DNA of 64,000 nucleotides, taken from Giesbergeria sp. (GTDB taxonomy: Bacteria; Pseudomonadota; Gammaproteobacteria; Burkholderiales; Burkholderiaceae_C). The DNA lies in assembly GCF_028686475.1 (NCBI RefSeq), contig NZ_JAQUCA010000006.1, positions 1-64,000 on the forward strand, written 5' to 3'. Below, in pieces: positions 26,173 through 30,057 of the stretch; the first letter of the stretch is position 1; every line of letters begins with the position of its first letter. The translations under genes were made by a program, and so were the position numbers. Below the pieces are notes generated by a model. That model saw nothing but the letters and a program-made list of their open reading frames with translations. It had not been told where the DNA came from and did not search any database.

Positions 26173-27150
26173 TCAGAGTTTGAGCAGCACCGCGCCCCAA
26201 GTAAAGCCACCGCCTACGCCTTCGAGCAGCAGGGTTTGGCCTTTTTGCACCTGACCGGCGCGCACGGCGTGGTCTAGTGCCAGCGGAATCGAGGCCGCCG
26301 AGGTGTTGCCATGCTCTTGCACCGTCACCACGACTTTGTCCATGCCCATTTTGAGCTTGCGCGCCGTGCTTTGCATGATACGGATATTGGCTTGGTGCGG
26401 AATCAGCCAATCAATATCGGCTTCGGTCAGGTTGGCTTTGTGCAGCACCGTGCGGGCGGCACCTTCCAATAAACCCACCGCCAGCTTGAACACCGCTTGG
26501 CCGTCCATCGTCAGCAAGGGCAGGCCAGTCACTTGGCCGCCCGAAACATGGCCGGGCACGCACAAAATGCCCACATGTTTGCCATCGGCGTGGATGTCGG
26601 TGGACAAAATGCCCGGCTCCTCCGAGGCTTCTAGCACCACGGCCCCAGCGCCATCGCCAAACAGCACGCAGGTGGTGCGGTCTTGGAAATCCAACAGGCG
26701 GCTAAAAATTTCGGAACCCACCACCAGCGCCCGCGTGGCCGTGCCCGCGCGAATCATGGCATCGGCGACCGTGAGGGCATAGATAAAGCCGCTGCACACC
26801 GCCTGCACATCAAACGCCGGGCAACCGTGGGCACCGAGTTTGTGTTGCAAGATGGTGGCCGTGGACGGAAACACCATATCGGGCGTGGAGGTGGCCACAA
26901 TAATCAGGTCAATGTCTTGGGCTTGCACCCCGGCAGCATCCAAGGCTTGGCGCGCGGCCTCTAGCGCCAAATCGCTGCTCACCACATCGGCATCAGCAAA
27001 GTGGCGCGCCCGGATGCCGGTGCGCTCGACAATCCATTGGTCTGAGCTTTCCACGCCACGGGCGGCCAAATCGGCCACTAAATCGGCGTTGGTTACGCGG
27101 CGCGGGGGCAGGTAGCTGCCCGTGCCGATAATGCGGGAGTAGGGTTTCAT
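26173..27150 (-). CDS. fabH: FabH, 3-oxoacyl-ACP synthase III
   Basis: Initiates fatty acid synthesis by condensing acetyl-CoA with malonyl-ACP. The 325-residue enzyme has Cys119 (VQAVCSGF), His252 (LIPHQANIR) and Asn282 (EHGNTSA), the complete triad. Its ATG shares one base with the iscB TGA (TGATG). No good Shine-Dalgarno is seen at the usual distance, only a GAGG about 19 nt upstream, so initiation may depend on ribosomes finishing iscB. In relatives plsX directly precedes fabH. Confidence 0.96.
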
Positions 27151-28598
27151 CAGTGTGCGCGTGAAACCTCGGCATTCATGCCGGGGAGGCAGAGCGCGGA
27201 ACGCACAGCGTTCCTGGCTTGGGGCCTTGCCGGTTCACGTTTTGCGCTGTTGGCCCGGTTGAAGAAGTAGCCATAGCCATCACCACGCTGAATCACGCGA
27301 CAATGTTTGTGGCTGATGCCTTGCACCACGACGGATTGTCCGTCTTGGTAGCTTTGGATGTTAAAAGAACCACTGGCTCGAATCGCCACACGACCGATGT
27401 GGATGCCAGCTTTGACCCCCGAGGGCACTTCGGCGCGTACCATGTCGCCAGTGCCAAAACCATGCACCCGTTTACGGCGCATGAGGTAGCCCCTTGGAAA
27501 GCCAAATTTGTTCAGCCTTGTGCGTTGGTAACTGCCTCGGCCTGTGGCTTTGAGTGTTAGCGTGGGGCATTGCCAGTTTTGCAGGACTTGCAGGGTTCCG
27601 ACGCAAGCAGCATCGAGTGCATGGGTTTTCGGGATACCCAGCGTGCAACGGTTGAATTTGGTTTGACCACCCGAAGCCAGTTCGACCGGCAAGCCGGTGG
27701 CTTGCAGCGCATTCGCCAGCGCCCAGCGGGTAGCATTGACTGCTGCTGCATCACGCAGGGGCTTTTTCGCATCTGCGAGTATCTTGGCCAAGCGCTTGGG
27801 GTCTTTGGTCAAAAAATCTTCAATGCTACGCGCGGCTTTTTTCTGGTTGCAGCAGGCGCAAGCCAGCGTTAAGTTAGAAGCCCGATTGCTGCCGCCCTGC
27901 GCTTTGGGGTGGATGTGTTCGATTTGCAACGGAACGTCTTGGGCATCGCAATACGCGCACTGGCGGCCCCATTTTTCCAGCAGGTACTCGCGCAGTTCGT
28001 AGCCGAATAAAGTGCCTTGCTGGTATTCGATGCCCGAGATTTTCGGGTTTTGCAGGGCTTGCATATCAAAGCGCACCAGCTCAGAGCTGATGGCTTTAAG
28101 TGGTACCCAGCGTTGGATGCGTCGCACCCACGCCATGCAGGTATCGACCCGGTGTTGCAACGAGGGGGCCAGCCAACCTTCTTTTTGGTTGCCGCGATTG
28201 AGAAAACGCGGCGCACGGTGGCGCAACTGGTTTCTACGCCGACGGCGCATCTGGCGGCGAGCGGTTAAGGCTTCGGAAATTTGTCTGCCACGATGGATTA
28301 ACTCCATCAAGTTCAGCACCACGGCAGTAACTTGCACTTCGCCGCTTTGCTGGTCAATGATTTCAGCATCGCGCACCAAAGCCAAGCCGGTAGTTTTGCT
28401 GCCGGGGTCGAGTTTCAAACGCAGTGGCTGAAAAGTGCAGGTATCCGCTGCACGGTCTGTAAGTCGAATCACCATCGGTACCAAGCGATGCACCCGCGCC
28501 CGGCCACGCGCCAGCAGCAGCCGGGCGCGCTTTTCGGTGCAGGGCATCAATGCCTTACCTTGGGAATCCAACACAAAAACTGCCACGTATCTCTCCAT
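27150..28598 (-). CDS. iscB: IscB, RNA-guided nuclease (RuvC + HNH), OMEGA system
   Basis: 482-residue IscB, the transposon-encoded ancestor of Cas9, which cuts DNA under guidance of an omega RNA. Visible parts: an N-terminal PLMP-type domain ([15 protein letters not shown] and the [16 protein letters not shown] helix); RuvC-I with D64 ([12 protein letters not shown]); an arginine-rich bridge helix (about 113-131); RuvC-II with E173 (SSELVRFD); an HNH domain with zinc pairs C214xxC217 and C247xxC250, His228 (IEHIHP) and Asn242; RuvC-III with H326/D329 ([11 protein letters not shown]); and a basic C-terminal domain. All expected catalytic residues are intact. No TnpA is nearby. A GTG at 28586, with GGAG six nt upstream, would give the family-like start (M)AVFVLD and may be the true start. 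The gene lies inside the plsX-fabH junction and its stop overlaps the fabH ATG. Confidence 0.93.
27198..27214. repeat. 7 bp inverted repeat near the iscB 3' end
   Basis: GGAACGC-ACA-GCGTTCC is a perfect hairpin within the last 25 codons of iscB. IS200/IS605-type elements carry subterminal hairpins at both ends, so this could be the right-end hairpin paired with the one at 28882-28901. The two stems are unrelated in sequence, so this stays a suggestion. Confidence 0.35.
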
Positions 28599-28901
28599 CT
28601 CTCCAAAAAAACGGCTGTCTTTCCAGCTAGTCAGCCCTTACGGGCTTAGTGAGGGACACCTTGCGATGTCGCTCCCCTCGGGAATGTTGGCAACCGGCTC
28701 CAGCTTTTACAAGCTGCGGTTTCAAGCTTCGGGCTTTTACCTTGGTCCAGCATGATTAAAACCTTGCAGAGCAGCAAACTGAGGAAGCATTTGCTGGTGC
28801 GTCTCAACGACCTGTTGTCAACGTAGCGGGCTGGTTACCGCTTTCCCTGGTCAACTTGGCTTAAATCCTTTCGGCTTCAAGCCCCATCCTTCAGGATGGG
28901 G
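28599..28901 (-). ncRNA. candidate omega RNA of the IscB element
   Basis: The roughly 300 nt upstream of iscB hold no plausible gene but many strong hairpins on the iscB strand, the expected place and size for an omega RNA (5' guide, structured scaffold, 3' end near the iscB start). From 5' to 3': an 8 bp stem with TGAA loop (28901-28882), a 7 bp stem CAGCAAA/TTTGCTG (28796-28772), a 6 bp stem with GTAA tetraloop (28716-28701), a GAGG../..CCTC and GACA/TGTC composite stem (about 28679-28651), and AGCCC-GTAA-GGGCT (28646-28633). A T-rich run follows just before the iscB ribosome site. The guide would be the 15-20 nt 5' of the first hairpin, inside the plsX 3' end. Exact ends are not determinable by eye. 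Confidence 0.7.
28882..28901. repeat. terminal-type palindrome at the left edge of the IscB element
   Basis: CCCCATCC-TTCA-GGATGGGG on the plus strand, a perfect 8 bp hairpin overlapping the plsX stop codon (28891-28893). On the iscB strand it is immediately preceded by TTA, giving ATTACCCC. Its position suggests the left-end structure of the element and the start of the omega RNA scaffold. Confidence 0.6.
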
Positions 28902-29961
28902 TAATTGACGACTGAGACGCTGGCGTGGGTGCGCGCTCCGTAGTAGGGCTGGCTGGCAGCAAAAAAGGCGCTGCGTTGGCGATGCGGTGGCGTACCCGGT
29001 CCAGCAAGTTGTTGCGGGCAGCATCATACGCCCGGTTCAGGGCTTGGCCAAAGGCTACCTCATCAGCCGAGCCGTGGCTTTTGAACACCAAACCGCGCAA
29101 ACCCAACAAAGCCGCGCCGTTGTAGCGGCGATGGTCTAAGCGCTTTTTGAAGGCCGACAACACCGGATAGGACATCAGTGCAGCCAACTTCGTCCAGGGG
29201 TTGCGGGCAAATTCTTGCTTGAGAAAGCTGCTGACCATGCTGGCCAGCCCTTCGCTGGTTTTGAGGGCCACATTGCCGACAAAGCCATCACAGACCACAA
29301 TATCGGTCGTGCCTTTGAAGATGTCATTGCCCTCGACATTGCCAAAGAAACGGATGCTGCCCGCCTCACCCGCATGGCGCAGCAATTCACCGGCTTTTTT
29401 AATCACTTCGCTGCCTTTGATGGCCTCGGAGCCAATGTTGAGCAGCCCAACGGTAGGTTGTTCTTGGCCTTTGAGTACCGTGTCTAATGCCGAGCCCATG
29501 ATGGCAAATTGCAGCAGGTGCAACTCGGTGCAATCGACATTCGCGCCCAAATCCAGCACCGTGGTGGAGCCACCCAAAGCATTGGGGATTTGGCCCGCAA
29601 TCGCCGGACGGTCAATGCCATCCAGTGTTTTGAGGATGTAGCGGGCAATCGCCATCAGTGCGCCCGTATTACCTGCCGAAACGGCCGCTGCCGCCGTGCC
29701 TTCTTTCACCTGTTGAATTGCTACGCGCATGGAGGAATTTTTTTTGCGCCGCAAGGCAATCTCTACCGGGTCATCCATCGTTACCACTTCGCTGGCGTGG
29801 ATGGCCTGCGCGCGCTCGTGGGTAAAGCTTTGTAAAGCCTCGGGCAGCCCCACCAGCAACAAACGCGCGTCAGGGTGCTCGTCCAGAAACCGGCGGCACG
29901 CCGCCAAAGTGACGCGGGGGCCGTGGTCACCCCCCATGCAATCGACAGCCAGAGTAATCAT
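28891..29961 (-). CDS. plsX: PlsX, acyl-ACP:phosphate acyltransferase
   Basis: Makes acyl phosphate from acyl-ACP for phospholipid synthesis. From the ATG at 29961 the product is 356 residues, starting [20 protein letters not shown]. Typical segments include [31 protein letters not shown] and [15 protein letters not shown]. The ORF start at 30021 adds unrelated residues. The last few codons (ITPS, then TGA) run into the palindrome at the edge of the IscB element, so the native C-terminus was probably replaced on insertion; the catalytic core is unaffected. Confidence 0.95.
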
Positions 29962-30019
29962 GGAACAAATGTGGGGCTGTTCATGCAGCCAGTTCAAGAA
30001 AGAAAGCAGCGGGAAAAGC

Positions 30020-30057
30020 AAAGGCCCGTGCTACAAAACAAGTAGCCACGGGCCTTT
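30020..30057. terminator. strong hairpin between rpmF and plsX
   Basis: AAAGGCCCGTG pairs with (C)ACGGGCCTTT, continued by CTAC/GTAG across one bulged base, giving about 15 bp with a 7 nt loop. On the minus strand it ends CCTTTGCTTTTCCC, a modest U-rich tail. It may partly terminate the yceD-rpmF transcript, so plsX and the genes behind it may rely on read-through or their own promoter in 29962-30019. Confidence 0.55.

Follow-up and report, generated by a model that had tools for sequence, protein, structure and literature searches.

How can the gene of a nuclease come to lie inside a fatty-acid operon without breaking it? The question is raised by a 64,000-nucleotide (nt) stretch of DNA from Giesbergeria sp. 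(contig NZ_JAQUCA010000006.1, positions 1 to 64,000), called the window below, in which an iscB gene separates plsX from fabH and shares their orientation. IscB is one of the Cas9-like OMEGA nucleases, whose origin and native life are little known. We report here that the window element is a recent, mobile insertion, one of a non-autonomous IscB/HEARO family, and that this copy inserted cleanly, immediately 5' of the ATGA containing the fabH start codon. We also consider it probable, if well short of certain, that it is tolerated there through a handover from stop codon to start codon, and that the site serves the nuclease. The features on which the argument draws are listed by window position; the hairpins and the TGATG overlap were read from the sequence, as was iscB, the latter together with the open reading frame (ORF) list and profile matches.

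27151..28909, minus strand: whole IscB/HEARO element, 1759 nt, delimited by aligned copies and by the empty site in a same-genus relative (locus L084)
27150..28598, minus strand: iscB, 482 amino acids (aa); its stop TGA consists of two element bases and the A of the target ATGA
27147..27150, minus strand: target ATGA, the fabH start codon plus A, known from empty sites in same-genus relatives; plsX stop TGA when the site is empty, and expected target-adjacent motif (TAM) of the empty allele
27148..27152, minus strand: TGATG, overlap of the iscB stop with the start of fabH
28666..28909, minus strand: HEARO RNA (omegaRNA scaffold), RF02033, 112.4 bits against a gathering threshold of 83, full model 1-211
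28910..28925, minus strand: expected 16-nt omegaRNA guide, the 3' end of plsX adjoining the left end; the scaffold match begins at 28909, and use as a guide is predicted
28882..28901, minus strand: left-end hairpin CCCCATCCT-GA-AGGATGGGG, in a region kept in aligned copies
27198..27214, minus strand: small hairpin GGAACGC-TGT-GCGTTCC
27167..27189, minus strand: right-end hairpin CCTCCCCGGCATGAATGCCGAGG, kept in aligned copies and fetched loci
28891..30021, minus strand: plsX, TIGR00182, 343.2 bits; its stop TGA (28893-28891) now lies inside the element's left end
26173..27150, minus strand: fabH, 325 aa, TIGR00747, 414.3 bits

The termini were defined by comparison of copies: the element begins at 28909 with GTCAATTACCCC and closes at 27151 with GCGCACACTG, with a hairpin just within each end. 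An alignment with relatives lacking the insertion, proposed in the first-pass annotation of this DNA, bears these ends out. The plsX-fabH junction is empty in L084, the nearest relative (FabH 97% identical), to which the window flanks rejoin base for base, with no gap or repeat, no target bases being duplicated or lost. The plsX frame stops, in L084 and likewise after the flanks are rejoined, at the TGA of the ATGA whose ATG begins fabH, an overlap of 4 nt. A fixed short target without duplication, as seen at the L084 junction, and subterminal hairpins at both ends are traits of the IS200/IS605 group. In the occupied site, plsX gains 5 residues before it meets a stop within the left end, and the iscB frame closes with TGATGA on the ATGA shared with the fabH start. 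No terminator-like sites were found inside the element on the operon strand. Judging from this arrangement, translation of fabH would be coupled to that of iscB.

The element is not alone in its genome. A comparison with the source genome returned 25 matching pieces, which were read as five full-length copies (69-100% identity), three internally deleted copies and 13 places comprising the right end only or little more, which lack iscB. A search with a right-end pattern from which the ATGA had been left out gave 20 exact right ends. HEARO was matched at the gathering threshold in 9 of 16 fetched own-genome loci and not in the other 7, and at five loci (L035, L036, L037, L038 and L042) it stands without iscB. 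Of 26 genus genomes only 3 contain the right-end pattern; in the order it occurs in 10 of 399 genomes, where it marks true ends in part only. Since right ends occur in so few genomes of the genus and the junctions of same-genus relatives are empty, the insertion at plsX-fabH is recent. Two side observations were made in the same genome: a CRISPR-DR4 repeat match lies close to one mini-element (L039:377-404), and a second right-end family, CCCCGAGGCTTCCCGCGCA, occurs at loci that are not gene starts (L051, L073, L076, L078 and L079), one copy standing beside tnpB and a tnpA fragment.

The sites occupied by the family have one property in common. In 19 of the 20 exact right ends ATGA follows five bases past the end, the exception, on contig C63, being a chimera, and the ATG of this right-flank ATGA opens a gene in 17 of the 19 cases (at least 60 aa long in 16 of them, 57 aa in the other). 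For 12 of these 17 genes a Pfam or NCBIfam profile starts near its first positions at the N-terminus or after a leader: ClpA, RraA, TrpS, ParD-like, MetA-pathway porin, type II secretion system protein G, HicB-like, FabH, LprI, RuvA, GST and MazE-like. The RuvA profile aligns its position 1 at residue 1 and LprI lies behind a signal peptide; the ParD and HicB matches are below the curated cut-off. Queries with FabH and with TrpS each return one match in the source genome, that for FabH being the window gene, and trpS, which lies behind a family right end, starts with ATGA in all four same-genus relatives that lack the element at this site. As a background rate we used the 330 ATGA of the window outside the element, which a simple gene caller (genes of at least 80 codons) sorts into 20 in frame within the first 40 codons of called genes, 19 intergenic and 291 intragenic. 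Against 20/330, a count of 17/19 gives P 3e-19, and the 14/19 that pass the caller's own length rule give P 8e-14; when the length of the open frame is the sole measure, at least 60 codons are found in 16/19 against 135/330 (P 1.4e-4). On contig C63 itself (L049:81-158), a right end is joined to a left end where the target would be expected, with two mini-elements near the contig end, an arrangement that is either a chimera or resembles a circle junction.

The overlap of stop and start seen at fabH recurs among these copies: in the coupled frame, the ORF of the element stops at the TGA of the ATGA, usually behind a first TGA (TGATGA). Even without iscB such a frame may be present, as 8 of 13 iscB-less copies of the source genome (L054, L059, L060, L063, L064, L065, L071 and L075) carry AAGGA followed by ATG or GTG at the place of the small hairpin, from which an 18-codon frame runs to the ATGA; most of these copies are near-identical and thus do not constitute independent evidence.

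Loci from other genomes found through the protein gave a second set of 24, three of which (L009-L011) match the three right ends of one genome of the window's genus. A right end with ATGA was present in 23 of the 24, and at least 60 aa were opened in 20 of the 23; for 12 of these 20 genes a profile begins near its start (e.g., response regulator, PdxJ, ObgE, GalE, ExoIII, TctC, TrpF and TraE). Note that one assembly, labelled Pantoea sp. 18069 (L013-L016, L028, L031 and L032), holds several copies 73-78% identical to the Burkholderiales-type IscB of the window, for which mislabelling, contamination and transfer are alternative explanations. Among 30 annotated plasmid and phage regions that were inspected, a right end with ATGA could be defined in 10; in five of these (L153, L155, L156, L161 and L216) the ATG is the annotated start of a gene, and in L158, an unannotated plasmid record, the gene start is backed by Pfam. 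In L163-L166, L171 and L172, with right ends judged by eye, a coding sequence beginning ATGA or ATGG follows 20-147 nt past iscB, several times with a Shine-Dalgarno (SD)-like GGAG or GAGG just 5' of the ATG. Two plasmids from taxonomically distant hosts, Trichormus variabilis and Deinococcus (L165 and L166), share the order parA-iscB-parB, and in a Nodularia phage (L172) iscB adjoins an IS607-type transposase annotation. In a Methylovirgula hydrogenase operon (L218:2501-2560), a right-end-like sequence precedes a GTGA whose GTG is an annotated start, with no HEARO match at the gathering threshold.

Viral contigs add a further set, of more distant IscBs taken without defined element ends. Eighty of 130 IscB loci, less 7 near-duplicates and 4 without a stop in the locus, left 69, from which 21 with an iscB stop overlapping an ATG were picked by eye; 14 of the 21 open at least 60 aa and 2 more run off the contig. 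This set, which has no chance rate, is supportive only. The exact right-end pattern, searched in viral contigs and in the 399 genomes of the order, hit mostly chance 15-mers without a hairpin among the 53 loci inspected; nine (L113, L120-L122, L186, L187, L195, L200 and L214) were kept by eye and enter no statistic, and L211 has the hairpin with no ATGA close by. Profile NF040563 exceeds its cut-off in only 2 of 398 genomes of the phylum and so added nothing to the set.

With regard to the protein, the first-pass annotation had described an intact IscB, lying between plsX and fabH, co-oriented with the operon and unaccompanied by a TnpA. Each of these points holds: ORFs and profiles place the gene as described, the element contains no TnpA, and the RuvC residues D64, E173, H326 and D329 are all present, as are H228 and the cysteine pairs C214/C217 and C247/C250 of the HNH part. 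These catalytic and CxxC residues are invariant across an alignment (A1) of 8 IscBs with 53-80% identity to the window protein. NCBIfam guided_IscB (NF040563) matches with 441.5 bits (cut-off 175), Pfam RRXRR, HNH and HNH_5 are matched as well, the two last above cut-off, and the top PDB matches are solved IscB structures. The portions consulted of the work on OgeuIscB (PMC9640706; other published sources are likewise cited for the portions consulted) assign the same roles to D61, E193, H340, D343 and H247. The window IscB is predicted to cleave DNA under RNA guidance. The exact termini, HEARO omegaRNA, further copies, stop/start overlap and start-codon placement common to sister copies all go beyond the first-pass annotation.

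How placement and nuclease might be connected is suggested by the guide. In the omegaRNA of OgeuIscB, the guide immediately precedes the scaffold on the 5' side, about 16 nt of it being required, and the TAM, which is NNRR, stands 3' of the target (PMC9640706); the TAMs measured for IsrBs are NTGA for DtIsrB, NTG for four others and NTGG for one from Burkholderiales (PMC9581776). ATGA is compatible with NNRR, NTGA and NTG, which themselves resemble start codons. In the mechanism that we propose, a TnpA-type transposase acting in trans would cut at ATGA (TCAT on the opposite strand), the left end would give the upstream gene a stop, and the iscB frame, or the short ORF in iscB-less copies, would end within the same ATGA, so that ribosomes would pass from element to host gene by termination and re-initiation and the insertion would be tolerated at start codons. 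The guide would be the last ~16 bases of the upstream gene, here plsX, read from the host transcript, with ATGA as the TAM; IscB would then cut empty alleles and spare the occupied site, where GTCA follows the guide match. The donor site is in fact one base short of an NNRR TAM, and no other guide match with NNRR was found in the source genome at up to 2 mismatches. As the guide lies outside the element, an upstream transcript would be needed; start-codon and operon sites would supply it, and this supply could be the reason why such sites are kept. More tentatively, and with the balance somewhat against it, IscB and IsrB elements at large may be adapted to starts, with the start codon (NTG, NTGA) as TAM and insertion motif, the upstream mRNA as guide, a left end that closes the upstream frame and a right end that passes ribosomes on to the captured gene. 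On this reading the start codon would be a safe harbour for the family, and each element would carry a guide against the empty allele of its host gene, directed at the start codon.

Several observations weigh against the proposed placement and handover. In the source genome, one mini-element ends within the apparent 3' end of an integrase gene (L059:124-189, contig C41), the right-flank ATG at C47:75522 opens 37 aa only, and under the stricter equal rule 14/19 differs from the 20/39 starts among window ATGA that do not interrupt genes at P 0.04. Three loci of the second set (L014, L015 and L031), all from one assembly, open 9-19 aa only; of the ten definable plasmid records, four (L154, L157, L159 and L160) are not, or not clearly, at starts, and in five (L220-L224) of ten records from cyanobacteria or cyanophages no gene starts at the site. 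The placement rule is accordingly mixed on plasmids and outside Proteobacteria. Among 38 insertion points, 11 have an SD-like motif on their 5' side, compared with 33 of 334 window ATGA (P 0.002), a low share nonetheless. The codon positions of the right-end tail vary about equally (456, 595 and 606); protein-level selection on this tail was rejected for lack of codon-position bias. The genome search for TnpA and further IscB copies, also suggested by the first-pass annotation, yielded the copies, five of them full-length, but no Y1 transposase with family ends: the source genome has three Y1_Tnp genes, with no family end within their fetched loci. A TnpA encoded elsewhere may mobilise the family in trans.

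It could also be that any ATGA is hit, that copies inside genes are lost, and that starts simply make up a large share of the harmless ATGA, with downstream translation restarting in the ordinary way. This would fit the 20 possible starts among the 39 window ATGA not within genes, from which the equal-rule count departs only at P 0.04, and the copies at ATGA that are not starts (L059, L065, L014, L015, L031, L154, L159 and L160). The looser count of 17/19, however, gives P 5e-4 against 20/39, genes are opened at 20 of 23 loci in the second set, and single-copy genes, those of FabH and TrpS, stand behind right ends. Moreover, to count starts as harmless presupposes the point in question, since insertion that parts an SD sequence from its start codon is harmful unless the element hands translation on. 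We regard this explanation as rather unlikely. With P values of 8e-14 in the one comparison and 0.04 in the other, the link to start codons is firm with respect to blind insertion and moderately supported with respect to insertion plus loss of gene-breaking copies.

A preference could instead reside in the transposition step, which might seek out translation starts or transcribed, ribosome-poor DNA, for instance exposed single strands, and the identical placement of iscB-less copies, which have no nuclease, speaks in its favour. Nevertheless, 38 left flanks show no evident conserved motif besides ATGA, apart from slight preferences for C at -1 and G at -3, and known Y1 transposases recognise a short motif on single-stranded DNA, which also counts against such targeting. 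We deem it improbable, and think selection acting on an ATGA target more likely than start-seeking insertion. Still further from the evidence is a domesticated nuclease stably kept in the fatty-acid operon. The first-pass annotation had offered this as the alternative to a non-autonomous insertion, and the open frame and intact catalytic residues of the window iscB are what it would require; many copies at unrelated genes, a right-end motif in only 3 of 26 genus genomes, and plsX-fabH junctions that lack the element in all relatives in which they were read, the nearest included, make it scarcely credible. Copy number and distribution led to the rejection of domestication, and it is the mobile insertion, with its many copies and empty sites, that stood.

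The IscB and HEARO parts were already known, and the start-codon placement rule is the new point. No statement of it was found in the consulted portions of the literature searched (including PMC9755519, PMC13180657, PMC9640706, PMC9581776 and PMC4227781), the original HEARO, ISC and OMEGA descriptions lying outside that search. If true, the rule would explain how operons of essential genes can be entered by such elements without breakage, would account both for the start-codon-like TAMs of IscB and IsrB and for the source of the guide transcript, and would suggest how an RNA-guided repressor directed against start codons could arise.

How does this family compare with known systems? It shares with HEARO (RF02033) the full-model covariance match and, at five loci of the source genome, copies without iscB. 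The 2009 description of HEARO reportedly gave the 3' flank as ATGA or GTGA; the present family goes beyond such a flank in that most of its ATGA open genes and are overlapped by the iscB stop. OgeuIscB and its relatives have in common with the window IscB the RuvC and HNH residues, the PLMP motif, the Arg-rich bridge helix and an omegaRNA 5' of the gene, and ATGA fits the OgeuIscB TAM (PMC9640706); unlike OgeuIscB, the window protein has about 480 aa and a tail that extends across the element's right end as far as the target ATGA. The IsrB nickases have TAMs (NTGA, NTG and NTGG) of the same class as the insertion tetranucleotides found here (PMC9581776), but lack the HNH domain that the window IscB possesses. 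The IS200/IS605 TnpB elements of the source genome have a similarly worded right end (CCCCGAGGCTTCCCGCGCA), whereas the four ends examined have no ATGA within 6-8 bases, and the GTGA present in two opens no gene of more than 28 aa. Finally, IStrons, which combine a group I intron with IS605 or IS607 and are spliced from RNA, with 118 of 202 insertions within genes (PMC4227781), are likewise mobile elements with a built-in means of rendering their insertions harmless; the window element differs from them in having no intron and in taking gene starts as its sites.

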